Shown one piece after another: positions 34,536-64,000 of a stretch of 64,000 bases of DNA. The translations under genes and the position numbers were made by a program. Within the stretch, counting starts at the first letter, position 1; each line of letters opens with the position of its first letter. The stretch is from Marchantia polymorpha subsp. ruderalis (Eukaryota; Streptophyta; Marchantiopsida; Marchantiales; Marchantiaceae), in NCBI GenBank assembly GCA_037833965.1, contig AP031352.1, positions 16,348,501-16,412,500 of the forward strand, in the 5' to 3' direction. The notes beneath the pieces are model-generated. The model was not told where the DNA came from. It saw only the letters and a list, made by a program, of their open reading frames with translations, and ran no database searches.

Positions 34536-34570
<35 letters not shown>

Positions 34571-38001: not shown

Positions 38002-38030
38002 TATAAAGTAGTTCAAGGCGTTTTGCCTTG
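38002..38030 (+). promoter_or_regulatory. LTR TATA box and hairpin (copy 35593-38975)
   Basis: TATAAAG at 38002-38008 follows the ORF stop by about 35 bp. The hairpin CAAGGC-GTTTT-GCCTTG is at 38014-38030. The same pair is conserved in the other copies. Confidence 0.6.
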
Positions 38031-40722
38031 GGTTCTTTCCCAATTTCAGAAGTGCAGATCAGGAACTCATTTTCTCTCCGTGTTTGTGTCCTTAGTTCTG
38101 TCACCACGCAAGAGGAGCTACAACTTGGCGTTCCGCATTTTGTAGCTAGAGGCCTCCGGCCGAATGTTCAGAGCTAGTACATTGGTTAGAGACTTGAGTA
38201 GTTCGGATCTACACCTGCGGGTGACTGGCGATGCTCAGAGCCAGTGACTAGTTAAATACCTGAATAATTTTGCCCCTACACCTTCGAGTGTTTGTTTCTG
38301 GTTGTACTCCTTCGGGATTTTTCCCCTGAATGCCAAAGTGAAGTTTTGTTACTTCGTGTAAGCCTTGGTTGTAAATTCAGGTTACGCTACAGCAGGTGCC
38401 TTCAGGGTAACCCCTGTAGTATTTCTGGGAATGACAAGTGCCTAAGAATTCAAACTCTTCAATAGACTGTTATTGTGTTACTAGAATGTTTCTCAGTGAG
38501 TCCTTCAGTGCGGACCTGTGTTCTCTGCGCGTTTTGTGAGTTGAGAGTGTTGTTCACCGCGTATGAGTGACTTCGATCCGAAGTAGGCAGTCCAAACCGG
38601 GTTTCCTACGCTAGCAGCAAGCTAGTGTAAGCGTTGTAAAAGCCGGAGTTGGGAGTCACTACCCGCAGCTTCGCTGAGTGTGCTCTTGAGAGACTTTCCC
38701 CCTGAAATCTTGAGTAGAGGTCCTAATGGATCTCTGGGTTGTGTTTCTGTAGTTTCAGGTGTGTGTGTGTGTGGGTGTTACGCTGCACTGTGCGACCTCC
38801 GAGTGCGCTCTGAGTGGACACTTGCAGTATTTCTGGGAGTGACAGTCGCCTGAGAATTCAAACTCCTCAATAGTCTGTTAAACGTGACACTTTGTACCCT
38901 GTGTGTTCCTCTGTCCCTGTGGGTTCGACCTTTCTACCACTATATTGCAGTTTTAGCCTTTAGTGGGTTATTACACCGACTGTCACCTGACAACAAACCC
39001 GCCGCACGAAGCTTTAACTCGCGCAGTGTGAGTTTCTCCTGCGCCGCCACTTCCCAGTGGGCGTAACCCCTGAGATAGTGGGTGACTCGTGTCGGCATCT
39101 CTTCCTTCGTGCGATCTGCCTCCCGCCGGCGATCGTCTTCAACTACAACCAACTGCAATTTGGCCTCCGCACGCTGCGCTCTCAATTCCCCGCACTCGGA
39201 TTGCAATCTGCGGATTAATTCTTCATCCGCCTGCCGTGCGAGCTGACACTGCTCTAACAACCGTGTGTGTCGCACGAGCTCCTCTGACAACATTCGATTC
39301 TGAGCTTGCTCAAAATCCAGCTCCTCTGCTAACTTCGCCTTTGCCTTGGCAAAATCCTCCAGCTTCTCATCCTTCGTCCTGTCGAGAGCCTTGTACATCT
39401 TCTTAGTGAGGTTGAGGTGACCCCACAGACAATCATGCCTCTCCCGCAGATCCTTAACTTCCTGATCCACACGGGCTGTGGTACCCCACTTTTGGCAATT
39501 TTGAGGAAATTAAAACATTTTTGGAAAACTGTACCCTGGCAGCATTGTAAATAGCCTTCGGTACATCAAAACGGAGTGAATCCGGAAGATCGCGGGGATT
39601 CTCGAGGGATCTTGTAGAATCTGGGATTTGGGGTGCAGCAGTAAGGACAGGCACCACCCTCCCTGCGAGCTCTGCAGTTAGGACCCTACGACGCAAGGCG
39701 CAAAACCCGCCTTCGGAGATTGCGTCCGCGGCGGTAGGGAAATCCTCCATAATTAGGTCAACCCTCGGGCGCCTTGACCAAGTTAGGGTCCCGTTGGAAA
39801 GAGCTCGACGCACTGATTCCAACGAGTCCAAGAACGCTTGGAACGGATGAGGACTTAGGGAGTTATCACTATTGGAAGAAACGGAGGCGGTCGCCTACGG
39901 CGGAAAGAGTTCGCCACCGGCGCGAATTCCGCCTACGCGGAAGGGGGAATCAAGTTCTGTCCTATGCGCGGGCGAAGGCGTTCGCCTGTGCACAGGCGAA
40001 GTAGGGTTAGGGGAGGCGCGAAGTCCGCCTACGCACAGGCGTTCGCCTGTGCACAGGCGCTTCGACGTCGGCGGAAAATCCGCCTTGGGCCCTAGAAATG
40101 CGCCTTGTGAGGTAGAAAGTGTACGGCGCCTTCCGCGCCAGCGCAGCGCCGCGTACGGCGGAAGAGCCGCCAGAGTAATCAAATCGGTACGGACCATGCG
40201 GACGGGACGGGTGGATGCGCTCTTGGACGGACGGAGTTGCGGCGACGGAAGCGCCGACGAAGAGACAAGGAACGGACAGACTGGACGGAGACGGCTGACC
40301 ACGATCAACGCCTTCCGCGCCAGCGCAGCGCCGCGTACGGAATTCGCCTGCGCACAGGCGGACGCCTGTGCACAGGAGGATGTTCAAGTTCCGCGCCGGC
40401 GGAGAATCCGCCGAGGAGTCTGCCTGCGCACAGGCAGGAGTTGAACTTTTGTCCGACATGCGGACACACGCGTCAAGGCAGAGGGGGATTGGCCGAGGGG
40501 CGGTACGAACAAGTGTACCGCGCAAGGCGGAAAACTCGCCTTCGGCGCTACGCCCCCATGTCCGCGGGGTAACACGCTCGCGGAGTTCAAATCCGCCAAT
40601 TCGAGCGTGAGAGTTTAATCGACGACGGCGGAGCGTGAAGCCGCGCGTGAGAGCGGAGACCGTTCCAGCGTACAGCCGGCGCGGCCATCAAGTGAGACGT
40701 TCTTCACGAGCAGGAGCCGACC

Positions 40723-43700
40723 ATGACCTTCGACCGGGCGGCGGAGAACGTCCCATTCTTGAATTCGCGATTCCAATCTCTTGTGCGCGCTGCGCGCATC
40801 CATCTGCTGGCTGCTGAACATTCTCGACGTCGCCGCACAGGAGATTTCTTGTTGATTGAGGGAGAAGTGAATGCGCGTGATTTGGAATTGAGGGCGATTA
40901 GAGTTTGCCGAGAGAGAAAGAAGCGCGGGCAGTGCGGAAGTAGAATGAGCGGGCGAGCGAACTCCAGGAACGCAATGACGAGACCGAGCAGATTGCGGAT
41001 GGTGCCACTTCGCCTACCACAGAACGGGCTGCGCGCTTTCGAGGAGCGCTTAATAGCAAGAAAGCTCGATTTCTTGCTATGGGGATGGAACTACATCTGT
41101 GCGAATATGGTGCGCGAGTGGCTAGAGCCACAGGGACCACCCTCGCGCGGATTGCGTCCGCATGTTGACCGGTGGACAGTCCAAAATTGGGCGCAGGCGT
41201 TGGGAAGATGTGCTGGCATGCCAGGGCATCTTCTTTTCGACAGTGAGAGCATCAAGGTGACCAAGCAGGAAGAGGCGCAATTTGTGGAGCTGTTCAAGAC
41301 CGGGAGGTCTACCAAGAATGGGTACAGGACCCGTGATTACAAGGATCGATTTCGCCGGACTTTGTCCGCGGCGCTGATGCAATTACTGCAGCCGCACCGC
41401 GCCTGCTACATCACATTGTGGCAGGTCTCTTTTGTGGAGTGCGTCATCGAGGGAACTCCAATTCACTGGGCGAGCATCCTGCACAGGGTGATGCGACAGC
41501 ACGCGTTTGAGGAGAAGGGGGGAACTCTAAACCATCTCTCTCCTTTCCTCATCAATTTTTATCGACAGCGGAATTGTTTGACAGCGGCGGAGCTTGAACA
41601 TTTTCCGCCATTATCCATCGACCATCCCGGGAAGTATGTGCGGGAGAATGAGGTCGACACTGATGCAGAGGAGTCACCGACTTCTACCCCATCAAGACGG
41701 AGGGACGAAGGGAGACACACTCCTGCAGCACGAGTGCCGCGGAAGCGGCGATGGAGGGAAGAGTCTGAAGAGGAGCAGCATCAAGAACCCTCTGCTCTCA
41801 TTCGACTGCGGCCGCTGTGCGAGCCATACAGCCGGCCGAAGCAGAAGGCACGCCGACTGGTGTTACCAGCCGACAGTGCGGACACGGCGACGATTGCGAC
41901 GGAGAAAGGAAGTGCGTCGCCAGAGAAGCATGAGGAAGCGCGGACGACCGCAGGAGCAACGGGCCACGCTGCAACCTCGACGGGAGAGAGGCCGCCTACG
42001 GGCCAAGGGCCTCCGGAGTTACCACGTGCGATGCGGACAGATGTTCCGTTTGCGCACAGACGAGCTTCCGCGGACGGACGAGCCTCCGCGGACAGGCGTT
42101 CACAAGTGGACGTGGATCTACGCTTACGCGTGGGAAGGAGCAGTCCGCCTGTGCACAGGCGCTCACCTGTGCACAGGTCGCCTGTGCACAGGACACCTCC
42201 ACACGTGCCGCCTGTGCACAGGCAAGAATCACCCCCGTTCCAACGTAGGAAGGGGAAGGAGCCGGCGGAAGAACCGCCTACGAGACACCGGCCCTCGGGG
42301 CCAGACCCTCCGGCGCACCACGCGCCGCAATTTGCGCCTTCGGCGCCAGGGCCTTCGAGCCGAGGAGATACGAGCAGGGAGCGTGCGGAGGCCGCACCCT
42401 CGGCGGGAAGTCCGCCGATAGATGCGCCTTCGGCGGTAGGGCCTATAGGCCAAGGGACATCGGGCGAGCGGCCCCCGGCCATGTCGCCTTCGGCGATGGA
42501 TGTCCGCGGCGCTACGTCTGCGGCGGACAAGGCGCCGGCAATTGCGCCTGCGCACGGGCCGGGCACAGCCCCCACGGACCGATCAAGGGATCAGCAACAG
42601 ACGGAGGAGCGGAGTGACTGTCCGCGGGATGAAATTTCGATGCGCGATGCGCAATCAAACCCCGCGCAGCCACCCTCCGCTAGATCGCCTTCGGCGGCGG
42701 GCGACGGCGGCAGAGAGGACGCGGTAGACAACCAACAAGCGAGCGACGGGGATGCCGCACGGGTACATTCGCCTTCCGCCTTAGACATTTTGGCGACGAG
42801 CAGCGAGGCTGCAGCCGTGCCTTCGCAGGCAGCACACGTCGACAACGTGCAGCCCCACTCGGGGCAGTCGCCGACGCAATCAATGGCGACTGAAATTCTC
42901 CACTCGGATGATGACGACGGGGGCTCCACGGAAGAAATGTCAGGAGCAGAAGACACCGAGGAGGAGGAGGAGGAAATTGTTGGAGCGCCGGCGGCGGCGC
43001 TCTCTGAGCAGGTGATTCCGTTGCTGAGGTACTTGGATCGCAAGGTCGATAAATACGCCGACCCACTCCAGCCGGGATCTTACATCGAGTTAGTGCGCAG
43101 GCGGACTCGCACTAAAGTCCACACCAGCAAGCTATTAGCTAGAGTGGACCAGGAGTTGAGGGAATTGAAGGAGAAGCATGCATGCTTGTGGGGTCAGTAC
43201 AAACTTAATCAGAAATTCTACAAGCACTCCGAGAAGATGAAGGATGAGAAACTGGACGAGCTCACCAAGGAGCAGGTGAAGGTCAAGGAAGCACTCATTT
43301 CTGAGCAGGCCCAGAATCGGATTTTGTCAGAGGAGCTCGTGCGACAGACGCGGTTGTTGGAACAATGTCAGCTCGCACGGCAGGCGGATGAAGAGTTAAT
43401 CCGCAGGTTACAGTCAGAGTGTGGCGAATTGAGAGCGCAACGTGCTGAAGCCGAATCGCAATTAGTGATAATTGAAGAGGATCGCAGGAAGGAGGCGGAT
43501 CGCACGAAGGTGGAGACGGCGAGGCGAGTCGCCCACTGTCTCAAGGGCTACGCCCACTGGGAAGTGAAGGCGCAGGAGAAACTCACACTGCGTGAGTTTG
43601 AATTGCGCGCAGCCGGGTTGTTGTCAGGCGACAGTAGGAGTCGACGGAAGGTAGCAAAGAAGCTCGATGCCTTTCTGTCGAAGGCACAGGATACCATGTC

Positions 43701-43863
43701 CGCCCTCGAAGTGGAGGTGTCCGCGGCGTTGCAGCGTTTGGGACTGCGCAGTCGAGCGGAAGATTGGCAGGGTAGGGAGTTAGTGCGCGGCAGTCGGCCG
43801 CGCAGGAGACGTAGTACAGGTTCCGCGGAGTGTAGTGTAGCGTGGTTCCGTGCAGGCGTGTAG
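40723..43863 (+). CDS. LTR-borne ORF, intact, 1046 aa: N-terminal domain, palindromic-repeat linker, coiled coil
   Basis: The ATG at 40723 sits in a good context (CCGACCATGACC) and the frame is open to TAG at 43861. Residues 85-300 form the conserved part: LRMVPLRLPQNGLRAFEE, KLDFLLWGWNY, MVREWLEP, RPHVDRWTVQNWAQ, TKNGYRTRDYKDRFRR, IHWASILHRVMRQHAFEEKG. Residues 300-720 are a Pro/Arg/Ser linker with PVHRR-type repeats encoded by CCTGTGCACAGG palindromes. Acidic residues follow near 727-755, LLRYLDRK at about 767, a coiled coil from about 805 to 960, and a basic tail. I see no protease, polymerase or nuclease motif. The N-terminal part has a loose likeness in rhythm to plant retroelement ORF1 or 'putative plant transposon protein' domains (inference). 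It lies wholly in the LTR, upstream of the LTR promoter, so its message is probably made as the 3' part of the element RNA or from a separate promoter. Confidence 0.8.
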   Translation: MTFDRAAENVPFLNSRFQSLVRAARIHLLAAEHSRRRRTGDFLLIEGEVNARDLELRAIRVCRERKKRGQCGSRMSGRANSRNAMTRPSRLRMVPLRLPQNGLRAFEERLIARKLDFLLWGWNYICANMVREWLEPQGPPSRGLRPHVDRWTVQNWAQALGRCAGMPGHLLFDSESIKVTKQEEAQFVELFKTGRSTKNGYRTRDYKDRFRRTLSAALMQLLQPHRACYITLWQVSFVECVIEGTPIHWASILHRVMRQHAFEEKGGTLNHLSPFLINFYRQRNCLTAAELEHFPPLSIDHPGKYVRENEVDTDAEESPTSTPSRRRDEGRHTPAARVPRKRRWREESEEEQHQEPSALIRLRPLCEPYSRPKQKARRLVLPADSADTATIATEKGSASPEKHEEARTTAGATGHAATSTGERPPTGQGPPELPRAMRTDVPFAHRRASADGRASADRRSQVDVDLRLRVGRSSPPVHRRSPVHRSPVHRTPPHVPPVHRQESPPFQRRKGKEPAEEPPTRHRPSGPDPPAHHAPQFAPSAPGPSSRGDTSRERAEAAPSAGSPPIDAPSAVGPIGQGTSGERPPAMSPSAMDVRGATSAADKAPAIAPAHGPGTAPTDRSRDQQQTEERSDCPRDEISMRDAQSNPAQPPSARSPSAAGDGGREDAVDNQQASDGDAARVHSPSALDILATSSEAAAVPSQAAHVDNVQPHSGQSPTQSMATEILHSDDDDGGSTEEMSGAEDTEEEEEEIVGAPAAALSEQVIPLLRYLDRKVDKYADPLQPGSYIELVRRRTRTKVHTSKLLARVDQELRELKEKHACLWGQYKLNQKFYKHSEKMKDEKLDELTKEQVKVKEALISEQAQNRILSEELVRQTRLLEQCQLARQADEELIRRLQSECGELRAQRAEAESQLVIIEEDRRKEADRTKVETARRVAHCLKGYAHWEVKAQEKLTLREFELRAAGLLSGDSRSRRKVAKKLDAFLSKAQDTMSALEVEVSAALQRLGLRSRAEDWQGRELVRGSRPRRRRSTGSAECSVAWFRAGV

Positions 43864-43899
43864 CGTAGTGCAGTGTAGTGCTAGGTAGGACTTAGAAGG

Positions 43900-43928
43900 T
43901 ATAAAATAGTTCCAGGCGTTTTGCCTGG
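43900..43928 (+). promoter_or_regulatory. LTR TATA box and conserved hairpin
   Basis: TATAAAATAG begins at 43900, 37 bp after the ORF stop. CCAGGC-GTTTT-GCCTGG at 43912-43928 follows at once. In other copies the stem is CAAGGC/GCCTTG, a compensated base-pair change. This would put U3/R near 43930. Confidence 0.65.
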
Positions 43929-46900
43929 GGTTCTTTCCCAAACTCAGAAGTATAGATCAGGAACCCATTTCCTTTGCGTGTTTGTGTCCTTGAGTTCTGT
44001 CACCACGCATGAGGAGTTACAACTTAGCGTTCCGCATTTTGTAGCTGAAGGCCTTCGGCCGAATGTTCAGAGCTAGTACATTGGTTAGAGACTTGAGTAG
44101 TTCGGATCTGCACCTGCGGGTGACTGCCGATGCTCAGAGCCAGTGACTAGTTAGATACTTGAACAGTTTCGCCCCTACACCTTCGAGTGTTTCTTTCTGA
44201 TTGTACCCCTTTGGGATTTTTCCCCTGAATGCCAAAGTGAAGTTTTGTTACTTCGTGTAAGCCTTGGTTGTAAATTCAGGTTACGCTGCAGCAGGTGCCT
44301 TGAGGGTAACCCCTGTAGTATTTCTGGGAATGACAAGTGCCTGAGAATTCAAACTCTTCAATAGACTGTTGTTGTGTTACTGGAATGTTTCACAGTGAGT
44401 CCTTCAGTGCGGACCTGTGTTCTCTGCGCGTTTTGTGAGTTGAGAGTGTTGTTCACCGCGTAGGAGTGACTTCGATCCGAAGTAGGCAGTCCAAACCGGG
44501 TTTCCTACACTAGCAGCAAGCTAGTGGAAGTGTTGTAAAAGCCGGAGTTGGAAGTCACTGCCCGCAGCTTTGCCGAGTGTGCTTGAGAGAGACTTTCCCC
44601 CTGAAATCTTGAAGTAGAGGTCCTACCGGATCTCTGGGTTGCGTTTCTGTAGTTTCAGGTGTGTGTGTGTGTGTGTGTGTGTGTTACGCTGCACTGTGCG
44701 ACCTCCGAGTGCGCTCCGAGTGGACACTTGCAGTATTTCTGGGAGTGACAGTCGCCTGAGAATTCAAACTCCTCAATAGTCTGTTAAAACGTGACACTTT
44801 GTACCCTGTGTGTTCCTCTGTCCCTGTGGGTTCGACCTTTCTACCACTATATTGCAGTTTTAGCCTTTAGTGGGTTATTACACGGGCCAACAACTTGCTG
44901 GTGTGGACTTTAGTGCGGGTTCGCCTCTTCACTAGTTCGACGTAAGACCCAAGCTGGCAGGTGTCCGCGTACTTCTCCACTTTGCGATCCAGGTACCTCA
45001 ATAGAGGTACTACCTGCTCACAGAGCGCTGCCGTCGGCGTGCCTACCACTTCCTGCTCCTCCTCATCAATGGATTCCGATCGCGACACTGATTCCGTCGA
45101 TCCTCCTTCTTCGTCATCCTCCGAATTGAGGATTTCGGTCGCCACTGAATTCGTCGACGACTGTCCTGTGCGTGGCTGCGCAATGTCTGCGTCCTCTGCC
45201 GCCACTGTCGTCCTGCAGCCTCGCTGCTCCCTGCCAGAATGTCCAAGGCGGTGGGTGAATGTGGTTGTGCCAAATTCACTTTGCTCGCCCGTCCGGCTTC
45301 TGCTAACTCCTCATCGCCGCAGGCGTCTACCGCCGAAGGTGATCGTGCGGAATGTGTCTGCGCGGAGTGCAATTGTGCATCGCATACACGAATTTCCTCC
45401 TACCGACAGTCAATCCGCTCCTGCGTTAGGTCCCGCTCCTTCGATCGGTCCCGCTCCTCCATTAGGTCCTGCGCCAGAGATGCGTCCTGCCTATGCGTAG
45501 GCGCAATTGCCGGCGGCGCTTCCGTTGAGGGCGCAGCGCCAAAGGCGGCTCGCCTGATATCCCTTGGCCCGAAGGCCCTTCCGCCGAAGGCGCACCTTCC
45601 GGCGGATTTCCCGCCGAGGGCGCGTTCCCCGCCGGCTCCCTACTCATAACTCGGTGGCTTGAAGGCCCTGGCTTGAAGGCGCATTTCCCGGCGGTTTCAC
45701 CGCCGAAGGACCTTGCTCCGAAGGCCCTCGAGCCGAAGGCGTAACTTCCGCCGGCTCCTTTCCCTTCCTGCGCTGCACCGGAGGTGAGTCTCGCCTATGA
45801 GTAGGCGTACTCTGTCCGCAAGGATTCGCCGATCCGCAAGGAGTCTCCCGTCCGCAGGGAGTCGCTTATCCGTAGGCGGCACACTCATCCGTGCCGCACG
45901 TTGTTGCTCCTGACCCGAAGGTCGTCTTACTTCCGCCGAGGGCGTAGAGAGGTCCGCTGACCCCTCTGCCGTCCGCGCAGTCCCATCCTTCTCCAAGGAT
46001 GGACCCTCCTTCTCTCCGGCGGCCTGCGCCGTTTCCGCGCTACTTGCAGGTAGTACAAGCCGGTGCGCTTTCTGCTTCGGCCTATTGTAGAGCTCGTGCA
46101 GTGGCCGCTTCCGTGTGAGAGCAGCCGAATCTTGATGTGGCTCTTTCTTCGGTTCCTCTCTCCATCCCCGCTTCCGCGGCACTCTCGCTGCGGATGTGTC
46201 CCTCCCTGCATCTTGTTGAGCCGGTGGAGTGGAAGTCGGTGTGTCCTCCGCGTCAGAGTCGATCTCGTTATCCCGCACATACCTCCCGGGATTGTCGACT
46301 GACAACGGCGGAAACTGAATACGCTCGGTCGCGGTTAAGCAACCCATCGACCGAAAAAAGATTATCAAGAAGGGGGAGAGGTGATTGAGCGTTACTCCCC
46401 GCTACTCATACGCATGCTGTCGCATTACCCTATGCAAGATACGCGACCAGTGAACTGGAGCTCCGGCCAACGTGAGCTCCACGAAGGACCCTTGCCAAGA
46501 AGTAATGTAAGTTGTGCGGTGCGGCTGCAAGAGTTGCAGCAGTGCCATCGCTACGGTTCTACGGAAACGATCTCTGTAGTCACGGGTCCTATACCCGTTC
46601 TTGGTGGACTTCTCCCACTTGAACAATTCCACAAAGAAGGCTTCTTCCGCCTTCGACACCTTGACGCTCTCACTGTCGAATAGGAGGAACCCGTCCTCGC
46701 CTGCACACCTCCCCAACACTTGTTCCCAATCGTGGACAGTCCACCGATCTACGTGCGGACGGAATCCGCGCGTAGGTTGTTGTCTCTCACTTAGCCATTC
46801 GCGCACCATGTACCCGCACACGTAATTCCATCCCCACAACAAGAAATCGAGTTTCCTTGCAATCAGCCGGTCCTGAAAAGCCCGCAACCCAATCTGCGGA

Positions 46901-48473
46901 AGCTTGAGTGGAACCATCCGCAGCTTAATCGACTTCGACATCGCGTTCTTGAAATCGGATTTCGCAAACTTCTCTCCGCTATGCCCAAGCCTCTTGCCCA
47001 CGGCACTGATTCCTCTGCAAACTCTAATCTCTCTCAATTCCGAATGTCGCGCACTCAATTCTCTCTCTCTGCCACCGGGTAAGTCTCTACGCGGTGGTGT
47101 CTAGAATGTCTCTAAGCTAGAAGGTGGACTCGCGCAGCTCGCACAAGGAATTGAAATCGCAAATTCAAGAATGGTGTGTCCGCTGTCCGCTCGTAAGGTG
47201 TCATGGTTGGCTCTCGGTCGTGAACATCGACTCATTTGATGGCTGCGCCGGCTTGGAGGTATAACCGCCCTCTCTCTCACGCGCGGCTTCACGCTCCGCC
47301 ATCGCGCTTTCACTCACAAGCTCGAAATGTCAATTTGAACTCCGCCAGCGTACTACGCTGCGGCCATGGTCGCGCAGCGCCGAAGGCGTATTTCTCGCCG
47401 ACGCGCTACTCTCATTCGTACTTCGACTCGGGCCGATCCCGCTCCGCCGAAGGCGTTCGTCCGCACGCTGCGTAGGCTCCAACTCCCTTCTACGTAGGCG
47501 GAATTCCCGGCGGACTTCCCGCCGGCGTCGAACTCCATCGCCTGTGCGTAGGCGCTCGCCTCTGCGTAAGCGCTGACCGTCCGCACAGAAGACGTCCGTT
47601 GGCGTAGGTCCCTCGCCGTAGGCGCAGCGCCGAAGGCGGCTGTGCCGAAGGCGTTGACCGCGGTCAACGGACTCCGTCCAGTCTGTCCATCTCTCTCGCC
47701 TCTCCGCCGGCTCTCTTGTCTCCGAATTCCCGACCCGCCGAGGGCGCACTCGTCCGTTCCGTCCGTACGGTCCGTACGGATTCGCTACTCCTTTGGGTCC
47801 TTACCTAACCTTGATGGGCTGGCGCCGCAGGCGTCGTACGAGCTCCACCCTCGAAGGCGGATTCCTAGGGCCGAAGGCGGATTTCCCGCCGAGGACGAAG
47901 TGCCTATGCGCAGGCGAAATCCGTCCGCCTGTGCGTAGGTGAAAGTCCTTCCGCCTATGCTTAGGCGGCATTCCTTCCGCGTAGGCAAAATTCTCGGCGG
48001 ACTTCCCGCCGACGTCAAACTCATTTTGCCTATGCGTAGGCGAACTTCCTTCCGCCTGTGCGTAGGCGAAAGTCTTCGTATCTTTCGACCGTCACAACTC
48101 CTTGATTCCTTATCCGTTCCGGGCGTTCTTGGGCTCGTTAGAACCAGCGCGTCAAGTTCTTTCCAACGAGATCCTAACCAAGTCAAGGCGTTTGTGAATT
48201 GCATAGATTCTGAGGGATTCTTCTAGCGCCGAAGGCGTACCGCCAAAGGCGGATTATGCGCCTTGCGCCGAACGAGAACTCCTTCAGAGTCGATCGTTCA
48301 GGGCGGGCGCCTGTTCCGGACATCGCGCCCAACTCAATGATTCTCTATGATTCTACGAGATCATCCATTTTCACTCTATTTAAATGTACCGATCATTATT
48401 TACACTACTGCTGCGGTACTGTTTTCCAAAAATGTTTTAAATTCCGCACAAACGCAAAAAGTGTGTTACCACA

Positions 48474-48796
48474 ACAATAAATAAAAAGGTATCAAGTGAT
48501 ACACTAACCTCATCACTGCAATGGCCTTACTTCGTGGGCATTGAATAGCAACATCGTCAACACTGCCAAGGGTATCGAATCGAGATGAGTGTCCTTCATA
48601 TACTCCTTTGTCCTCAACATCGTCTTCAGAAGGATGGACCAATTCATGTAGTTGAGGTGACCAGTGAGTTTTATCTCGAGAAGTAATGTGAAGGCACAAT
48701 TGTATTGAGCTTCTTCCATGGCGGCTGGAAGGACGCACTTTCTAGTGAAAATTGTTGAGCAACTGTTGGTAGATTAACAAGAAAATTTGTGATTAC
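48474..48796 (-). pseudogene. Ty1/copia-like gag fragment between two LTR blocks
   Basis: The minus-strand frame 48719-48513 reads CAFTLLLEIKLTGHLNYMNW followed by SILLKTMLRTKEYMKD. The 'KL.G..NY..W...' pattern is typical of the N-terminus of copia gag proteins. It ends at a stop shortly after, and no other copia part is present. It is the only non-gypsy sequence between the second composite and the truncated LTR, and may be an older host-site remnant. Confidence 0.5.
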
Positions 48797-54039: not shown

Positions 54040-54068
54040 CCAGGCAAAACGCCTGGAACTATTTTATA
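54040..54068 (-). promoter_or_regulatory. LTR TATA box and hairpin (copy 53096-58502)
   Basis: On the minus strand, the TATA box complementary to 54062-54068 follows the ORF stop, then CCAGGC-GTTTT-GCCTGG (complement of 54040-54056). This is the same arrangement as at 43900-43928. Confidence 0.6.
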
Positions 54069-54104
54069 CCTTCTAAGTCCTACCTAGCACTACACTGCAC
54101 TACG

Positions 54105-57100
54105 CTACACGCCTGCACGGAACCACGCTACACTACACTCCGCGGAACCTGTACTACGTCTCCTGCGCGGCCGACTGCCGCGCACTAACTCCCTACCCTG
54201 CCAATCTTCCGCTCGACTGCGCAGTCCCAACCTCTGCAACGCCGCGGACACCTCCCCTTCGAGGGCGGACATGGTATCCTGTGCCTTCGACAGAAAGGCA
54301 TCGAGCTTCTTCGCTACCTTCCGCCGACTCCTACTGTCGCCTGACAACAACCCGGCTGCGCGCAATTCAAACTCACGCAGTGTGAGTTTCTCCTGCGCCT
54401 TCACTTCCCAGTGGGCGTAGCCCTTGAGACAGTGGGCGACTCGCCTCGCCGTCTCCACCTTCGTGCGATCCGCCTCCTTCCTGCGATCCTCTTCAATTAT
54501 CACTAATTGCGATTCGGCTTCAGCACGTTGCGCTCTCAATTCGCCACACTCTGACTGTAACCTGCGGATTAACTCTTCATCCGCCTGCCGTGCGAGCTGA
54601 CATTGTTCCAACAACCGCGTCTGTCGCACGAGCTCCTCTGACAAAATCCGATTCTGGGCCTGCTCAGAAATGAGTGCTTCCTTGACCTTCACCTGCTCCT
54701 TGGTGAGCTCGCCCAGTTTCTCATCCTTCATCTTCTCGGAGTGCTTGTAGAATTTCTGATTAAGCTTGTACTGACCCCACAAGCACGCATGCTTCTCCTT
54801 CAATTCCTTCAACTCCTGGTCCACTCTAGCTAATAGCTTGCTGGTGTGGACTTTAGTGCGAGTCCGCCTGCGCACTAACTCGATGTAAGATCCCGGCTGG
54901 AGTGGGTCGGCGTATTTATCGACCTTGCGATCCAAGTACCGCAGCAACGGAATCACCTGCTCAGAGAGCGCCGCCGCCGGCGCTCCAACAATTTCCTCCT
55001 CCTCCTCCTCGGTGTCTTCTGCTCCTGACATTTCTTCCGTGGAGCCCCCGTCGTCATCATCCGAGTGGAGAATTTCAGTCGCCATTGATTGCGTCGGCGA
55101 CTGCCCCGAGTGGGGCTGCACGTCGTCGACGTGTGCTGCCTGCGAAGGCACGGCTGCAGCCTCGCTGCTCGTCGCCAAAATGTCTAAGGCGGAAGGCGAA
55201 TGTATCCGAGCGGCATCCCCGTCGCTCGCTGGTTGATTGCCCACCGCATTCTCTCTGTCGCCGTCGTCCGTCGCTGAAGGCGATTGAGCGGAGGGTGGCT
55301 GCGCGGGGTTGGATTGCGCATCGCGCATCGAGATTTCATCCCGCGGACAGTCACTCCGCTCCTCCGTCTGTTGCTCCCTTGATCGGTCCGTGGGGGCTGT
55401 GCTCGGCCCGTGCGCAGGCGCATTTGCCGGCGCCTTGTCCGCCGCAGGCGTAGCGCCGCGGACATCTATCGCCGAAGGCGACATGGCCGGGGGCCGCACG
55501 CCCGATGTTCCTTGGCCTATAGGCCCTACCGCCGAAGGCGCATCTATCGGCGGACTTCCCGCCGATGGTGCGGCCTCCGCACGCTCTCTGCTCGTATCCC
55601 CTCGGCTCGAAGGCCCTGGCGCCGAAGGCGCAAATTGCGGCGCGTGGTGCGCCGGAGGGTCTGGCCCCGAGGGCCGGTGTCTCGTAGGCGGTTCTTCCGC
55701 CGGCTCCTTCCCCTTCCTACGTTGGAACGGGGGTGATTCTTGCCTGTGCACAGGCGGCACGTGCGGAGGTGTCCTGTGCACAGGCGACCTGTGCACAGGC
55801 GACCTGTGCACAGGTGAGCGCCTGTGCACAGGCGGACTGCTCCTTCCCACGCGTAAGCGTAGATCCACGTCCACTTGTGTTCGCCGGTCCGCAAAGGCTC
55901 GTCCGTCCGCGGAGGTTCGCCTGTGCGCAAACGGAACATCGGTCCGCATCGCACGTGGTAACTCCGGAGGCCCTTGGCCCGTAGGCGGCCTCTCTCCCGA
56001 CGAGGTTGCAGCGTGGCCCGTTGTTCCTTGGGTCGTCCGCGCTTCCTCTCGCCTTTCTGGCGACGCACTTCCTATCTCCGTCGCAATCGTCGCCGTGTCT
56101 GCACTGTCAGCTGGTAACACCAGTCTGCGTGCCTTCTGCTTCGGCCGGCTGTATGGCTCGCACAGCGGCCGCGGTCGAATGGGAGCAGAGGGTTCTTGAT
56201 GCTGCTCCTCTTCGGACTCTTCCCTCCATCGCCGCTTCCGCGGCACTCGCGCTGCAGGGGTGTGTCTCCCTTCGTCCCTCCGTCTTGATGGGGTAGAAGT
56301 CGGTGACTCCTCTGCATCAGTGTCGACCTCGTTCTCCCGCACATACTTCCCGGGATGGTCGATGGACAATGGCGGAAAATGTTCAAGCTCCGCCGCTGTC
56401 AAACAATTCCGCTGTCGAAAAAAATTGATGAGGAAAGGAGAAAGATGGTTTAGAGTTCCCCCCTTCTCCTCAAACGCGTGCTGTCGCATCACCCTGTGCA
56501 GGATGCTCGCCCAATGAATTGGAGTTCCCTCGATGACGCACTCCACAAAAGAGACTTGCCACAATGTGATGTAGCAGGCACGGTGCGGCTGCAGTAATTG
56601 CATCAGCGCCGCGGACAGAGTCCGGCGAAATCGATCCTTGTAATCACGGGTCCTGTACCCATTCTTGGTAGACCTCCCGGTCTTGAACAGCTCCACAAAT
56701 TGCGCCTCTTCTTGCTTGGTCACCTTGATGCTCTCACTGTCGAAAAGGAGATGCCCTGGCATGCCAGCACATCTTCCCAACGCCTGCGCCCAATCTTGGA
56801 CTGTCCACCGGTCAACATGCGGACGCAATCCGCGCGAGGGTGGTCCCTGTGGCTCTAGCCACTCGCGCACCATATTCGCGCAGATGTAATTCCATCCCCA
56901 TAGCAAGAAATCCAGCTTCCTTGCTATTAAGCGCTCCTCGAAAGCGCGCAGCCCGTTCTGCGGCAGGCGAAGTGGCACCATCCGCAATCTGCTCGGTCTC
57001 GTCATTGCGTTCCTGGGGTTCGCTAGCCCGCTCATTCTACTTCCGCACTGTCCGCGTTTCTTTCTCTCTCGGCAAACTCTAATCGCTCTCAATTCCAAAT

Positions 57101-57257
57101 CACGCGCACTCACTTCTCCCTCAATCAACAAGAAATCTCCTGTGTGACGACGTCGAGAATGGTCCGCAGCCAGCAGATGGATGCGCGCAGCGCGCACAAG
57201 AGATTGGAATCGCGAATTCAAGAATGGGACGTTCTCCGCCGCCCGGTCGAAGGTCAT
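54105..57257 (-). CDS. LTR-borne ORF, intact, 1050 aa (second copy)
   Basis: The ATG is at 57257-57255 and the stop at 54105-54107. It is colinear with the 1046-residue ORF at 40723-43863, with scattered substitutions and small indels in the linker, for example one extra PVHRS repeat and a missing Gln near the Arg-Glu-Gln run. The N-terminal domain (85-300), acidic patch and coiled coil are the same except for a few residues. That two copies in different places both keep a frame over 1000 codons means recent movement or selection on the protein. Function is unknown; the features resemble a structural protein with a coiled-coil oligomerisation region. Confidence 0.8.
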   Translation of the reverse strand: MTFDRAAENVPFLNSRFQSLVRAARIHLLAADHSRRRHTGDFLLIEGEVSARDLELRAIRVCRERKKRGQCGSRMSGLANPRNAMTRPSRLRMVPLRLPQNGLRAFEERLIARKLDFLLWGWNYICANMVREWLEPQGPPSRGLRPHVDRWTVQDWAQALGRCAGMPGHLLFDSESIKVTKQEEAQFVELFKTGRSTKNGYRTRDYKDRFRRTLSAALMQLLQPHRACYITLWQVSFVECVIEGTPIHWASILHRVMRQHAFEEKGGTLNHLSPFLINFFRQRNCLTAAELEHFPPLSIDHPGKYVRENEVDTDAEESPTSTPSRRRDEGRHTPAARVPRKRRWREESEEEQHQEPSAPIRPRPLCEPYSRPKQKARRLVLPADSADTATIATEIGSASPERREEARTTQGTTGHAATSSGERPPTGQGPPELPRAMRTDVPFAHRRTSADGRAFADRRTQVDVDLRLRVGRSSPPVHRRSPVHRSPVHRSPVHRTPPHVPPVHRQESPPFQRRKGKEPAEEPPTRHRPSGPDPPAHHAPQFAPSAPGPSSRGDTSRERAEAAPSAGSPPIDAPSAVGPIGQGTSGVRPPAMSPSAIDVRGATPAADKAPANAPAHGPSTAPTDRSREQQTEERSDCPRDEISMRDAQSNPAQPPSAQSPSATDDGDRENAVGNQPASDGDAARIHSPSALDILATSSEAAAVPSQAAHVDDVQPHSGQSPTQSMATEILHSDDDDGGSTEEMSGAEDTEEEEEEIVGAPAAALSEQVIPLLRYLDRKVDKYADPLQPGSYIELVRRRTRTKVHTSKLLARVDQELKELKEKHACLWGQYKLNQKFYKHSEKMKDEKLGELTKEQVKVKEALISEQAQNRILSEELVRQTRLLEQCQLARQADEELIRRLQSECGELRAQRAEAESQLVIIEEDRRKEADRTKVETARRVAHCLKGYAHWEVKAQEKLTLREFELRAAGLLSGDSRSRRKVAKKLDAFLSKAQDTMSALEGEVSAALQRLGLRSRAEDWQGRELVRGSRPRRRRSTGSAECSVAWFRAGV

Positions 57258-58502
57258 GGTCGGCTCTTGGTCGTGAAGAATGTCTCACTTGATGGCCGCG
57301 CCGGCTGTACGCTGGAACGGTCTTCGCTCTCACGCGCGGCTTCACGCTCCGCCGTCGTCGATTAAACTCTCACGCTCGAATTGGCGGATTTGAACTCCGC
57401 GAGCGTGTCACCCTCCGGACATGGGGGCGTAGCGCCGAAGGCGAGTTTTCCGCCTTGCGCGGTACACTTGTTCGTACCGCCCGTCGGCCAATCTCCTTCT
57501 GCCTTGACGCGTGTGTCCGCATGTCGGACAAAAATTCAACTCCTGCCTGTGCGCAGGCAGGGGCCTCGGCGGATTCTCCGCCGGCGCGAAACTTGAACAT
57601 CCTCCTGTGCACAGGCGAGCGCCTGTGCGCAGGCGAATTCCGTCCGCGGCGCTGCGCTGGCGCGGAAGGCGTTGACCGTGGTCAGCCGTCTCCGTCCAGT
57701 CTGTCCGTTCCTTGTCTCTCCGTCGGCGCTTCCGCCGCCGCAACTCCGTCCGTCCAAGAGCGCATCCACCCGTGCCGTCCGCACGGTCCGTACCTATTGG
57801 ATTACTCTGGCGGCTCTTCCGACGTACGCGGCGCTGCGCTGGCGCGGAAGGCGTCGTACACTTTCTACCTCACAAGGCGCATTTCTAGGGCCCAAGGCGG
57901 ATTTTCCGCCGACGCCGAAGTGCCTGTGCACAGGCCGCGCCTGTGCGTAGGCGGACTTCGCGCCTTCCCTAACCCTACTTCGCCTGTGCACAGGCGAACG
58001 CCTTCGTCCGTGCATAGGACAAAACTTGAATCCCCCTTCCGCGTAGGCGGAATTCGCGCCGGTGGCGAACTCCTTCCGCCATAGGCGACCGCCTCCGTTT
58101 CTTCCAGTAGCGATAACTCCCTAAGTCCTCGTCCGTTCCAAGCGTTCTTGGGCTCGTTAGAATCAGCGCGTCGAGCTCTTTCCAACGGGACCCTAACTTG
58201 GTCAAGGCGCCCGATGGTTTACCTAATTACGGGGGTTTCCCTACAGCCGCGGACGCAACCTCCGAAGGCGGGTTTTGCGCCTTGCGCCGTAGAGATCCTA
58301 ACTGCGGAGCTCGCAGGGAGGGTGGTGCCTGTCCTTGCTGCGGCACCCCAAATCCCAGATTCTACAAGATCCCTCGAGAATCCCCGCGATCTTCCGGATT
58401 CACTCTGTTTTGATGTACCGAAGGCTATTTACAATGCTGCCAGGGTACAGTTTTTCAAAAATGTTTTAATTTCCTCAAAATTGCCAAAAGTGGGGTACCA
58501 CA

Positions 58503-61500
58503 CATGGACCAAGGTACCACACGAGGGCGAAACACCTTCGACCACCTCCGGTTACACGACTGGAGGGGAGACCAGCTCGTCATGCACTTCAGAGACAGAA
58601 ATGTCGGATGAGTTTGTGGGTTACGTCACTTGCTGCTCCATTGAGGAGGAAGGGGACGATGTGCATCCGGATGACGAATAGCAACTAACAGTCGGACTGG
58701 GCAGAAGCGAGATCAGTCACACAGAGGGGATTGTCGACCCAAGTGACTGCTGCGAACTGCAGCTCAGTCCAGACAAAGGCTTGAAGGTGTCAAGCCAGGT
58801 ACAAGGAGAAGAGTTGAACAGGGTACAGGCGTTTCTTCGCCAGTATGAGGATGTCTTCGCATGGAAGATTGAAGACATGAAAGGCATACCTGCAAGGTAT
58901 GGAGAGCACAGGATCGACTTGTTGGACGAGGCAGTTCCGGTTCGCCAACGCCAATACAGGCTCAACCCAAAATACTCATTATTGGTGAAGGACGAAATCG
59001 ATAAGTACCTGAGCGCAGGGATCATCTACCCGGTACTAAGTAGCGAGTGGGTGTCGCCTATTGTAATCGTGCCCAAGAAACTGACGGGTAAGATCCAGGT
59101 GTGCCAGGACTTCCGGAAGCTGAACGCAGCTACGAGAAAGGACCATCACCCTCTCCCTTTTACGGACTCTATTTTGGATCATGTCGCAGGGCATGAATGT
59201 TACAGTTTCCTAGACGGGTTCTCCGGCTACAACCAGGTGTCCATCAGAGAACAGGACAAGGACAAAACAACCTTCATGACCGACTGGCGAACCTACGCTT
59301 ATCACAAGATGCCTTTCGGGCTGTGCAACGCGCCAGCGACGTTCCAGCGGATGATGACAAACATCTTCCAAGAGCACTTGAGGAAGTTCCTGGAAATTTT
59401 CATCGATGACTTTTGTGTCTTCGGTAAGAGGTCGGAGCACCTTAACCACCTTCGGCAGACGTTTGACAGATGTCGGGAAAGCAGCTTGTCCTTGCACCCT
59501 GAGAAGTGTTTTTTCTTTATGACCAGCGGAATCCTGCTGGGGCACAGAGTTTCGTCCGATGGCATTGCAGTGGATGTAGAGAAGGTGAAGATTATTCTCG
59601 AACTTCAGCCGCCGACGAACCTACGTGAGTTGAGGGCCTTCCTTGGCCATGTAGGCTATTACAGAAGGTTCATAAATATGTACGCCATCTTGGCAGCCGA
59701 TCTGACGAAGCTGCTTAAGAAGGTGGAACCCTATGTGTGGGGCAAGGAGCAACCGCTGGCCTTTGAAACACTCAAAGCTAAACTGACGACTGCTCCGGTT
59801 CTGAGAAGTCCGGATTGGAACAGACCTTTCCATGTCTATGTAGACATGTCGGCATTTGCAATCGGAGTAGTTCTCAGTCAGAAGGACGACAACAAGAAGG
59901 ACTACCCGATTTACTTCGCGAGCCGTCAGTTGTGAGCAGCAGAGAAGAAGTACACAACAACTGAGAGGGAGGCGTTGGGAATGGTGTACTCCTGTAAGAA
60001 GTTCAGACATTATTTGATCTGCTATGAGTTTGTGTTTCATGTGGATCATTACGCACTACAGCACCTGGTGAAGAAGGCGGATCTGTCCGGACGAATTGCC
60101 AGGTGGGTACTACTGCTCCAGGAATTCACCTACACTGTGCAGACTAGGAAGGGCGTTCACCATAAGAACGCGGACTACCTCTCCAGACTATGGACCGAAC
60201 CCATAGAAGAGGAAGTAGTGGATGATTTTCCCGATGAACAACTTTTTCAGTTGTCCGCCAGCCATGAGTGCAGGTATGCGGACTTGTACAGGTTTCTGCT
60301 CACACTCCAATGTCCGGAAGGATTGGATGCGGAGCAGCGCACAGTCTTCGTTCGTAAAGCGGGACCTTACCAGCTCCAACAGGGGGTCTTATTCAAGAAA
60401 ATGGCAGATGAGAGGCTGTGCAGATGCGTAGAGGAGTCCGAAGTTCCGCGAATCGTTAAAGCCATGCACACAGAAGACGCTGGTGGTCATTACGCCACCA
60501 GGAATACGGTGACCAAAATTGTGAATGCAGGATACTGGTGGCCGACGATGTTCAAAGATGTACACGACTACGTTCGCAAATGCGATAGCTGCCAAAGAAC
60601 GGGAAGGCCGACTTCGACCACGAGATGGCCTCTGACACCGATCATGCCCTTGGCACCATTTGAAAAATGGGGGATCGACTTCGTGGGACCAATACAACCT
60701 GTCACTAAAGGCACGCGCAGGCGCTACATATTGGTAGCAACGGACTATGCGACCAAGATGGTGGAGGCAGAGGCCACAAGGCACGACGACGCAGTAGCAG
60801 TAGCAAGGTTCCTATTCGAATCAATCATCACACGCTACGGGTGTCCACTAGAAATAGTTAGTGACAGGGGAACGCACTTTTTGAATCAGGTGATAGAAAG
60901 TTTGACGCGGCACTTCCAAATTAAGCATCGGAAGACTACTCCATACAACCCCAAGGCGAATGGTCTGACAGAGAAATCCAATGGATTGCTCTGCAAGATA
61001 CTCCTCAAGGTGACTGTGAACCATGCTCACGACTGGGACACCAAGCTACCGGCCGCCTTATGGGCATACAGAACTGCAGAGAAAGTCACCACCAGGCAAA
61101 CACCTTACTTTCTGGTTTATGGGCAGCATCCGATCTTACCTATCGAATTCGAGATACCCACCAAGAGGACCTTAGATCCGAGAAGGCTGGATGCGGAAGA
61201 AAGTCAGGCCTATCGACTGCAAGAAGTAATGGCACTGGAAGAAAGACGTCAAGAGGCCGAAGATCGAACAAAGCAACTACAGCTCAGGCGGAAGGAGAAG
61301 TACGATCGGAGACTCAAACCAGTACTACTCGAGAAGGGCGACTTGGGTCTACTCTACGATAGCAGACATGCTAGATTTCCAAGCAAGCTACACTTGAGAT
61401 GGATGGGACCATACAAGGTGATCAAAGTTTTCCCCAATGGCTCAATCCAGCTCGCAGAATTGACAGAAGAATGGCTAGGCACCCGCGTGAACGGGTGGCG

Positions 61501-61522
61501 TCTGAAGAAATACCACGTGTAA
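58503..61522 (+). pseudogene. pol: Ty3/gypsy pol: reverse transcriptase, RNase H, integrase, two in-frame stops
   Basis: A single frame runs from 58503 to TAA at 61520, with TAG at 58679-58681 and TGA at 59933-59935. RT (about 58900-59640): SEWVSPIVIVPKK, KLNAATRKDHHPLPF, FLDGFSGYNQV, MPFGLCNAPATFQRMM and the active site FIDDFCVFG (near 59400). RNase H: VYVDMSAFAIGVVLSQ, TTEREALGMV, FHVDHYALQH. Integrase: zinc-binding HTEDAGGHY...CDSCQRTG, catalytic Asp in WGIDFVGPI, Asp in VSDRGTHF, Glu in LTEKSNGLL, and a C-terminus ending NGWRLKKYHV. There is no chromodomain. The enzymes copy element RNA to DNA and insert it. Protease and gag are missing upstream. The TGA lies between RT and RNase H and looks like a point mutation. 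The TAG has a leaky context (TAGCAACTA) and may once have been read through. Confidence 0.9.
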
Positions 61523-61544
61523 ATGTTCGCGTGGGCGCTCACAA

Positions 61545-61559
61545 TTGAGGAGGGGGGCA
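61545..61559 (+). promoter_or_regulatory. polypurine tract for plus-strand DNA priming
   Basis: TTGAGGAGGGGGGCA lies directly before the LTR start TGTGGTAAC at 61560 and 23 bp after the integrase stop. Its position and purine run are those of an LTR-retrotransposon PPT, which marks 61560 as the true 5' edge of the 3' LTR. Confidence 0.85.
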
Positions 61560-64000
61560 TGTGGTAACACACTTTTTGTTTTTTTTGCAGAATTTAAACA
61601 ATTTTAGAAAACTAGTACCGAAGCAGTGTCTGTAGTTAGAAAAGGGTACGTTAAATAGAGTGGATTGAGGAGATCGTCACGAGGTCACGAAGAATCGCGA
61701 AGTCGGATGTACCAGCGCCAAATGTCTTCGGCGCCTTCGGCAAAAGCTCCTTTTCTGAGGTGTCTCTACTCACGCGCTCCCAACGTTTAAGGAAGCTACG
61801 CTTCCGGCGCAGACACCTCCGGAGGAGATTTTGCTAAAGACGTCAGAAGAACAGCACGGACCTCTGAAGGCTTCCGACCATGAGTGCGCCTTCGGCGATG
61901 CGCCGCTAGCGCGGAAAGGAGAACCTTCATAACGATCGGAATACACGGTAGTTCCAGTTGGTTGAAATTGCATTAGAAAGAGCTCGGGACGCTTGTTCTA
62001 ACGAGCCCAAGAGCGTCGAAGATGGATCAGGGACGAAGAAGTTATGAGCATCGGAAAACTCGTAGCCGGACATGCGCCGTTCGCGCTAGGGTTCACAGTC
62101 GGAAAGGACTCCCGTACGCCTTCGACGATGCGCCTTCGGCGGAATCACGCGCTCATGGGAGGAAATCAACTTAGAGTCGGAAGCGCCTTTGGCGGCTGCG
62201 CAACGGAAGAAAAGCGCCGGCCAGACGTACGCCTCCGACGTGGCGCTGATAGGCGGATGCGCTGGCATGATTTGCGCCGGCGGGATATGCGCCGTCAGCA
62301 ATGGACGAGGCAGAACGGACAAAACAAGCGGTACGAATACGCGCCGGCGTAAAGAGACCTGAGGACAAGCAGCCGGAAATGCCAGCTGCGCCGACTCGTA
62401 GTCGGCCAACCAACGCGCCTCATAGCCGACCGAAACAGAGGGCACGTAAAGTGCCAACTAGTACTGAGGAGACCGGGCGTACTCCGGTCCGGCGGAGTAT
62501 CCTGCCCACGCAGAAGGAGATAATCGCGCAGATTCTGGGGAAGTCGGCAAATACCTCTGCGCAGAAGGCACCAATGCCTTTGGAAGAAGACAGACGGACT
62601 GACAGTCGGCCGACTACGAGTCGGGCGACTGAAGGTCGACAAATGGAAGGAAGGCCGACTAAGCGGCGCGTTGAACTGGACAGCAGGCCGGAAGCAGAAG
62701 GGAGTTTGGCTGACGAGCCAACAACCCTCAGAGGGTCGTCTTCGGCGGAAGGCACTTCTGGGAAAACGCCGCCAGCAAGCAGGCCAAGTGGAGTGAAGAC
62801 GCGCAGGGTAGATCTGACTGCCAGTCGGACACCTGCTAGTCGGCCGACTGCGAGTCGGTCAACAGAGAGTCGGCCAGATTCGCCGACTGCGAGACGGACA
62901 GGGCCGGCGACCATTGTGCGGACGCCTTCGGCGGACGCACCTCCAGCGAAGACACCTTCCGCGCAGATCGCGCCGGAAGGGCAGGCAGCAGAAGCGGGCG
63001 GTGCAAAGGTGACAAAAGTCACAGCGGCGTCGACCCCTTCGGAAACCGAAGATCGAGCCGGAACAGGGGCTCAAGCAGTGGGATCCCCCACTGCCTTGGA
63101 TATTTTAGCAGGGAGTGGAGCGGCAGTCGCGGCGGAAGCTTCTGCGCGCCACAGTTCCAGGGAGTCGCCAAGGGATTCGGTGGCGACTGAAATCCTCGAA
63201 ACGGAGGATGAGACGAGTTCGGAAGAGCAGGAAGCGGTCTCTGTGCAGAAAACGCCAATAGGGGTGTTGTGCGAGCAGATAGTTCCACTCCTGCGATATC
63301 TGGATCGCAAGACATCCAAGTACTCGGGTACCGGAAAACCGCAGTCTTACGTGGAGACTGTCAAACGCAGGACGAGGAGCAAGGTGGCCACTTGGGCCTC
63401 TAGGTGCCAAACATTGCAGGATAAGAACACTACCCTCCGACAGTACTTGGCGGTCACGCAGAAGCTATACCAAACCCTGCAACAACAGAGGGAGGATGCG
63501 GCGACGAAAAACCAGGCGGATGCCGAGCTAATGCGGGCAAAGATCGAGTCGGAATTGCAGGAAGAGCGGAGACAAAACCGCATCTTAGCAGAAGAGCTTG
63601 CTCGCCAGAAGCGCGCCTTAGAAGAAAGTCAAAGTACACGCAAGGAGGATGAGGAATTGTTGCGCAACTTGCAATCCGAGTGCGCGGATTTGAGGGCGCA
63701 GCGCGCAGATGCGGAAATACAGCTAGCAGAGGTGGAAGGCAGCTGCCGGACGCGAGAAGAGTTGGCGACGCGGGTGACTCACTGTCTAAAAAGATACGCC
63801 CATTGGGAGGTGGCAGCTCAAGAGAAGATCACACTAAGGGAGTTTGAGCTTCGGGCGGCGGCATTGACGGAGGGTGACAGTCGGAGTCGGCGGCGAGTAG
63901 CAAGGAAATTAGAAGCCTTCTTGTCGGGCGCGCGCGACACTATGGCGCACTTGGAGTCGGAAGTGATTGCAGCCCTCCGGCGTCTGGGGTTGCGCAGCCG
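61560..64000 (+). mobile_element. 3' LTR of the pol-bearing element, continues past the window
   Basis: Begins TGTGGTAACACAC after the PPT. The leader to 62351 equals 50502-51300, then a deletion joins the leader to the ORF linker (RPEDKQPEMPAAPT). The LTR-borne ORF continues to the end of the window, so TATA, hairpin and TTATTACA should lie outside it. Confidence 0.8.
62352..64000 (+). CDS. LTR-borne ORF in the 3' LTR, 5' deleted, open to the window end
   Basis: The frame from 62352 has no stop that I find up to 64000. A possible ATG is at 62379. It encodes the A-subfamily linker with Ser-Arg-Pro-Thr repeats (from AGTCGGCCGACT-like palindromes), the GSPTALDILAGSGAA segment, the acidic TEDETSSEEQEA patch, LLRYLDRKTSKY, SYVETVKRRTRSK and the coiled coil to about LRRLGLRSR. 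The N-terminal domain is lost in the deletion at 62351, so it is not a full-length gene. It carries CAG at the two codons that are TAG in the 5' LTR. It lies directly downstream of pol on the same strand. Confidence 0.65.

Follow-up and report, generated by a model that had tools for sequence, protein, structure and literature searches.

We analysed a stretch of 64,000 nucleotides of Marchantia polymorpha subsp. ruderalis (GenBank assembly GCA_037833965.1, contig AP031352.1, positions 16,348,501 to 16,412,500 of the forward strand; hereafter the window), in which related repeats are nested within one another from 33 to 64 kb. The characteristic repeat is a unit of about 5.4 kb that is the giant long terminal repeat (LTR) of a Ty3/gypsy retrotransposon and that carries a long open reading frame (ORF) within its unique 3′ region (U3). 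Two subfamilies differ in their LTR start, which is TGTGGTACCCCAC in subfamily 1 and TGTGGTAACACAC in subfamily 2. The features of the window are collected in Table 1, where A and A′ denote two subfamily-1 units; unit A opens with the subfamily-1 start (TGTGGTA...) and ends in TTATTACA. A first-pass annotation, made from the sequence of the window alone, had described solo units with 5-bp target-site duplications (TSDs), and such duplications were found at 39477-44882, 35593-38975 and, on the minus strand, 10103-13213. Its statement that each full copy contains a long ORF holds for A and A′, but the ORF of 35593-38975 is internally deleted and 10103-13213 has none. An older LTR is split by the insertions 35593-38975 and 39477-44882, and its pieces appear to form one unit, since their order matches that of A.

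The window also contains an element of subfamily 2. The polypurine tract (PPT) with an LTR start at 61560, and the same start again at 50502, to which the first-pass annotation had pointed, are both present, but both are of this sister subfamily. Since the pol of the window, which is interrupted by UGA at 59933-59935, also belongs to the sister subfamily, the window alone gives no direct tie of the 5.4-kb unit to pol. Over 816 aligned codons, the subfamily-2 ORF of the copy at locus L069 and the ORF of unit A have 48.5% identity. Within the ORF of another subfamily-2 LTR a 1.1-kb tandem duplication (97.7%) was seen at 15224-17478. An Rfam search of positions 33000-64000 gave no match.

Table 1. 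Repeat features of the window (PR, protease; RT, reverse transcriptase)
Feature	Position	Strand	Remarks
Subfamily-2 LTR with internal 1.1-kb duplication	9300..18438	-	interrupted by 10103-13213
ORF-less solo LTR, 3111 bp	10103..13213	-	TSD CTTCG
ORF fragments of LTR 9300..18438	13378-15483, 15484-16236, 16272-17381		
Older LTR, other pieces	34330-35592 and 38976-39476	-	putative whole unit spans 34330-48473
Solo LTR, 3383 bp, relative of A	35593..38975	+	TSD CCGAC; ORF internally deleted, both ORF ends left
Unit A, solo LTR (subfamily 1), 5406 bp	39477..44882	+	TSD CGGGC at 39472-39476 and 44883-44887
LTR ORF of unit A	40696..43863	+	open frame of 1055 codons, first ATG 40723; inside U3
Sole TATAAAA of LTR A	43900..43906	+	36 bp past ORF stop; taken as marker of the U3/R border
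Older LTR, main piece	44883..48473	-	72% to A in ORF part, 87-89% at 3′ end
Older LTR, ORF fragments	45697-46401 and 46402-47100		
5′ part of subfamily-1 LTR	48797..50501	+	ends where element at 50502 begins
5′ LTR of subfamily-2 element	50502..53095	+	without middle of ORF and ~390 bp at end; cut by unit 53096-58502
Unit A′, LTR (subfamily 1), 5407 bp	53096..58502	-	96.4% identity to A; without TSD
LTR ORF of A′	54105..57284	-	1059 open codons
Internal part of subfamily-2 element	58503..61522	+	end of gag-PR, then pol
UAG at gag-PR/RT boundary	58679-58681	+	followed by CAACTA
RT-RNaseH	58682-59935	+	
Rest of RNaseH and integrase	59936-61522	+	
Polypurine tract GAGGAGGGGGG	61547..61557	+	followed by CA and 3′ LTR
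3′ LTR of subfamily-2 element, 3550 bp in total	61560..64000	+	continues to window-equivalent 65109 (L069)
Shortened subfamily-2 LTR ORF	62271..63998	+	later part only; open at window end

Structure of the element and its LTRs

A direct link was found in a tandem array at C2:31.345-31.379 Mb, where four PPT junctions follow each other at an exact period of 11,184 bp. One unit of the array was read as two separate pieces, L073 and L074, which show no difference in the final 611 bases of the LTR. L074 runs from the PPT through an LTR of 5385 bp (C2:31362306-31367690), 98.06% identical to unit A over its length and with an ORF of 1049 open codons, to the region of the primer-binding site (PBS). 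L073 leads from the LTR end over a 22-bp spacer to the PBS TGGCGCCGCTGCCGGGGA, a gag-protease frame of 944 codons, UAG, pol, the PPT and the next LTR; its RT-RNaseH-integrase part comprises 946 codons in frame with gag-protease across the UAG. Because this array joins the two, the 5.4-kb unit can be assigned as LTR to a pol-bearing element. The LTR as read from PPT to PBS in L074 includes the ORF, which bears out the first-pass proposal of a giant LTR carrying a long ORF against the refuting case named there, in which the paired LTRs of pol elements would end well before the ORF.

The frames of L073 gave Pfam matches to Retrotrans_gag, zf-CCHC, RVT_1, RNaseH, Integrase_H2C2 and rve. The domain order gag, protease, RT, RNase H and integrase is that of Ty3/gypsy elements, with a weak match for the aspartic protease (E 1.2e-4, just below the cut-off). 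Further features of this group are a PBS after the 5′ LTR, here 22 bp past the LTR end, a PPT before the 3′ LTR, and direct TG...CA terminal repeats with TSDs, the latter seen at solo LTRs only, namely the three of the window and a copy at L072 flanked by GAGCA. The PBS is complementary to the 3′ end plus CCA of the host tRNA-Asp(GTC) at 18 of 18 bases. A pattern for this tRNA 3′ end, with four letters partly or wholly free, had 29 genomic matches that all read GGTTCGATCCCCGGCAGCGGCG, and both genes checked encode tRNA-Asp(GTC). In the accessible part of PMC6317226, tRNA-Asp is one primer named for non-chromoviruses. The chromodomain expected of a chromovirus was not matched in the 946-aa pol (Pfam, E 0.001). 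A single RNase H region was matched in pol by Pfam, in a scan without an aRH-specific profile, and the stretch between pol and the 3′ LTR showed no env-like frame. The 22-bp spacer (L073, reverse complement 612-633) could, as judged by its letters and not by folding, form a small hairpin AAGAAG...CTTCTT.

Pattern counts across the genome extend this structure to many copies. A PPT followed by an LTR start occurs at 1203 junctions of all LTR types (at most 1 mismatch), 704 of them of the 5.4-kb type, and an LTR end followed by the PBS at 1325 junctions (at most 2 mismatches); reversed control patterns for both junctions gave 0 matches. LTR ends number 6137 (at most 1 mismatch), roughly five times the PPT junctions, and many LTRs are probably solo by this rough measure, since their ends exceed the PPT junctions. 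For pairing, we used 48 of the 100 listed subfamily-1 PPT sites (C1, C2 and the first part of C3) out of 704, together with all 100 listed exact PBS sites out of 1325, a sampling with which missed pairs are expected. For 36 of these 48 PPT sites a PBS in the same orientation lay no more than 16 kb upstream, with an internal region of 5791-5934 bp in 35 cases and of 12,650 bp in one. For 10 of the 48 a PBS followed downstream within 9 kb, which bounds the LTR on both sides; nine of these LTRs, from four tandem arrays, measure 5296-5402 bp and one 4230 bp. The LTR start also stands directly after the PPT in all 30 pol loci examined (L009-L038, copies with subfamily-2 type pol), in one of them with a changed tract base, a result that is partly due to selection as the query included 61 bp of LTR. 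L033, located on C8, is the only one of these loci in which subfamily-2 type pol is followed by an LTR start of the ORF-less type described below, TGTGGTAACCCAC, which may be a sign that elements can exchange LTR types.

The unit could also be thought of as a self-contained DNA transposon (TGT...ACA ends) with a gene of its own, which pol adjoins by nesting. This would suit the solo copies with 5-bp duplications, the imperfect inverted repeat common to both ends (TGTGGTACCCCAC / TGTAATAACCCAC) and the large excess of LTR ends over PPT junctions, but it was rejected on the PPT and PBS junctions and retains practically no probability, given that about 1200 copies begin at a PPT, about 1300 end just before the tRNA-Asp PBS region, nine LTRs of 5.30-5.40 kb in four arrays lie between a PPT and such a PBS, L073 and L074 contradict it directly, and no transposase family in Pfam matched the ORF as the transposase-like source that the first-pass annotation had considered.

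Head-to-tail arrays of full elements with shared LTRs were seen, besides the one on C2 (11.18 kb), at C3:20.853-20.875 Mb (11.09 kb) and C3:22.623-22.645 Mb (11.20 kb); within any one array the period varies by no more than 1 bp. This suggests that they arose by unequal recombination between the giant LTRs or by integration of multimers.

The junction between gag-protease and RT was found 754 times in the genome when the stop letters were left free and CARYTN was fixed. TAG is present in 97 of the 100 junctions listed (two of the others have TAT and one TAC), and the codons after UAG are CAATTA, CAACTA or CAGTTA. The leaky stop context of the tobacco mosaic virus type is UAG-CAR-YYA, and the junction looks like a site of programmed stop-codon readthrough. 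The two systems have in common that the parts before and after the stop are in one frame and that UAG is followed by CAA UUA, CAA CUA or CAG UUA; they differ in that the site here separates gag-PR from RT in a plant-type retrotransposon, where readthrough is a prediction. When retrotransposon papers were searched for this leaky-stop motif by its name, none came up, while gag-pol readthrough has reportedly been worked on in other retrotransposons, such as Candida Tca2.

The ORF in U3 as a gene

An ORF of this length might be open by chance or owing to GC-rich composition without being a gene. Such a view would draw on the GC-rich and proline-rich middle, which evolves fast (39% amino acid identity between the subfamilies), and on the lack of a Pfam domain. 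However, when the LTR was simulated 500 times with a third-order Markov model, the longest frame reached 404 codons at most (median 218), compared with 1055 observed. Differences between the ORFs fall mainly on third codon positions, with 19/21/50 at first, second and third positions between A and A′ (binomial p = 1.2e-5), 9/7/18 between A and L074 (p 0.014) and 43/30/58 between A and L072 (p 0.006). Insertions and deletions (indels) in the ORF measure 15 and 3 bp between A and A′, compared with 1, 3 and 6 bp outside it, 18 bp (a single one) between A and L074, and 2 and 33 bp between A and L072. The ratio of nonsynonymous to synonymous substitution rates (dN/dS) is 0.23 (A/A′), 0.16 (A/L074), 0.20 (A′/L074) and 0.31 (A/L072) among the long copies, 0.41 and 0.33 for two partial relatives, 0.21 between A and the older unit, and 0.39 and 0.33 within subfamily 2. 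Between A and the long subfamily-2 ORF of L069 synonymous sites are saturated, and yet the N- and C-terminal parts have kept 57% and 52% amino acid identity. To judge from these comparisons the LTR ORF is behaving as a gene under purifying selection, because of the dN/dS values of 0.16-0.31, the third-position excess and the in-frame indels between intact copies, and a frame open by chance is very improbable. Conservation within the LTR does not peak in the ORF, since A and A′ diverge by 4.6% in the upstream U3, by 2.9% in the ORF and by 1.7% in the region of promoter, R and U5.

The TATAAAG motif in the subfamily-2 LTR of L069 lies at the place that corresponds to the sole TATAAAA of LTR A, and exact TATAAAA was absent from 35593-38975, from the older-LTR piece and from the subfamily-2 LTRs scanned. 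Eight ATGs precede the first ATG of the ORF within the LTR. Because the only TATA box follows the ORF, transcription should begin after it, and the genomic RNA would carry the ORF at its 3′ end, in the U3 of the 3′ LTR. The first-pass annotation had placed the ORF at the 3′ end of the RNA instead of an env-like gene; the single TATA box fits the placement, but the likeness to env is one of position only, as no membrane segment was found. A sense ORF in U3, upstream of the promoter and under selection, is the arrangement of LTR-borne accessory genes of the sag and nef type, with the U3/R border here set by the TATA box.

We put at roughly 0.78 the probability that the units are LTRs of an abundant non-chromovirus Ty3/gypsy element whose U3 holds a conserved third gene (about 1050 codons). 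Some copies of the element look intact. In such an element transcription would begin after the TATA box past the ORF and give a full-length RNA in which gag-pol precedes the U3 gene, with the latter at the 3′ end; pol would be made by readthrough of the leaky UAG, reverse transcription would copy the U3 gene into both LTRs, and its protein might have an accessory or regulatory role in trans.

Several observations weigh against this reading. No matching duplication flanks unit A′ (GTTCC / CATGG) or the subfamily-2 element 50502-65109 (TGCCG / GGGAT), and the ORF of L072, one of the four long copies, is broken by the 2-bp frame-breaking indel. Constraint on the ORF seems weaker than on pol, as amino acid identity between the subfamilies is 91% for RT and 87% for integrase (67% for gag). 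In addition, active and dead branches are pooled in the dN/dS values. When the N-terminal part was modelled with AlphaFold2 from five pieces of the window, the mean predicted local distance difference test (pLDDT) score was 40, and the model suggests, at this low confidence, a helical structure. Moreover, LTRs exist that have no ORF, one of them with a TSD of its own (10103-13213) and another in L071. They have a different U3, in which patches common with A measure 110-121 bp in 10103-13213 and 110-236 bp over both units, and their final ~1.02 kb, corresponding to A from 2 bp beyond its ORF stop onwards, is 96.4-96.5% identical to it. Their longest frames have 155 and 159 codons, and the ORF protein had no match in 10103-13213. 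PPT junctions with the ORF-less LTR start follow each other on C3 at a spacing of ~3.19 kb (17734521, 17737708 and 17740898), and the 230-315 bp before two of them hold only remnants of the gag start, in part inverted, and the PPT border. This spacing suggests that these short tandem elements have no ORF. Since ORF-less LTRs and short tandem elements exist, neither gag-pol nor the LTR gene seems to be needed in cis, which fits a role in trans but would also fit a dispensable gene.

Possible role of the U3 protein and known systems

The protein itself gives few indications of function. A Pfam search, also with E up to 10, yielded only weak, chance-level or coiled-coil matches. The middle of the protein is rich in proline and charged residues, and the C-terminal part is coiled-coil-like with an arginine-rich tail, a build that presumably resembles that of the extra ORFs of plant Tat/Retand elements, although no profile matched. 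Two basic motifs, PRKRxW and RPKQ[KR]A[RH]R, come back in the translations of A, of the older unit and of subfamily 2, within a middle that otherwise varies, and may be nuclear-localisation signals. Our guess is that the U3 gene encodes a trans-acting nuclear accessory protein and not an envelope. Because recombination between LTRs leaves one whole LTR, the U3 gene is the only coding part that could persist in solo LTRs. It is conceivable, and no more than tentatively proposed, that the solo LTRs form a dispersed gene family whose nuclear protein controls the element in trans, by anti-silencing or copy-number control, and also serves the ORF-less derivatives.

A rather unlikely alternative is that the U3 protein, made also from solo LTRs, restrains the element instead of helping it. 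Yeast Ty1 p22 offers an analogy for such copy-number control. Many solo LTRs could keep making the protein if their ORFs are open, and the ORF-less derivatives still spread; on the other hand, it would need explaining why an element retains a gene that limits it. Still less probable is that the protein resembles env and serves in the export of particles or in movement from cell to cell. The ORF lies on the same strand as gag-pol and would occupy the third-gene position at the 3′ end of the RNA, but the ORF protein of A has no membrane-spanning stretch by hydropathy in this one copy (top 19-residue Kyte-Doolittle mean 1.14) and shows basic clusters and a coiled-coil-like C-terminal part instead, for which reason the env reading was rejected.

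Genes in LTRs are so far known from a few vertebrate retroviruses. In the available sections of PMC2664473, sag of mouse mammary tumour virus (MMTV), nef of primate lentiviruses and an ORF of bovine foamy virus are among the long LTR ORFs detected, and the MMTV LTR is given as 1300 nt. The accessory genes sag and nef likewise lie on the sense strand in the U3 of the 3′ LTR. They belong, however, to vertebrate retroviruses with env and much shorter LTRs, whereas the LTR described here has 5.4 kb and a gene of ~1050 codons, and the likeness is one of arrangement alone. For non-chromoviruses, LTRs of up to about 5 kb are mentioned in the accessible part of PMC6317226, which does not state if ORFs lying in LTRs were treated separately. 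Additional ORFs of plant elements are described in the portion available of PMC7264820 as internal, mostly between pol and the 3′ LTR and in either orientation. Athila, SIRE, Bagy2, Grande, RIRE2, Retand and Ogre share with the Marchantia element a third gene 3′ of gag-pol, but according to these partial sources their extra ORFs are internal, whereas here the gene lies inside the LTR and is hence present twice. In exact-term searches of the open part of PubMed Central, no account of a plant element with a gene in its LTR was noticed.

A conserved LTR gene in a plant-type Ty3/gypsy element would change how such repeats are annotated, given that LTRs now count as non-coding and solo LTRs as devoid of genes. 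If the reading of a U3 gene is correct, each retrotransposition would copy the gene twice, and each undamaged solo LTR would keep a complete gene. The natural occurrence of LTRs with and without the ORF that have promoter, R and U5 in common would furthermore provide a clean test for the role of third genes in plant retrotransposons.

Other features came to light in the course of the analysis. On C1, a small contig of 5.6 Mb, pairs of LTR-end loci repeat with the same flanks at a distance of ~393 kb between ~2.2 and 3.1 Mb (L055/L064, L058/L065, L059/L066, L060/L067 and L061/L068), and a third copy ~366 kb further on is suggested among the places listed. This suggests large segmental duplications on a contig that is perhaps a sex chromosome. 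In the window itself, an 18-bp repeat array at 2657-3056 lies within a minus-strand open frame of 360 codons without Pfam match, and an open frame at 27379-28293 contains a Lipase_3 domain and is probably part of a host gene.

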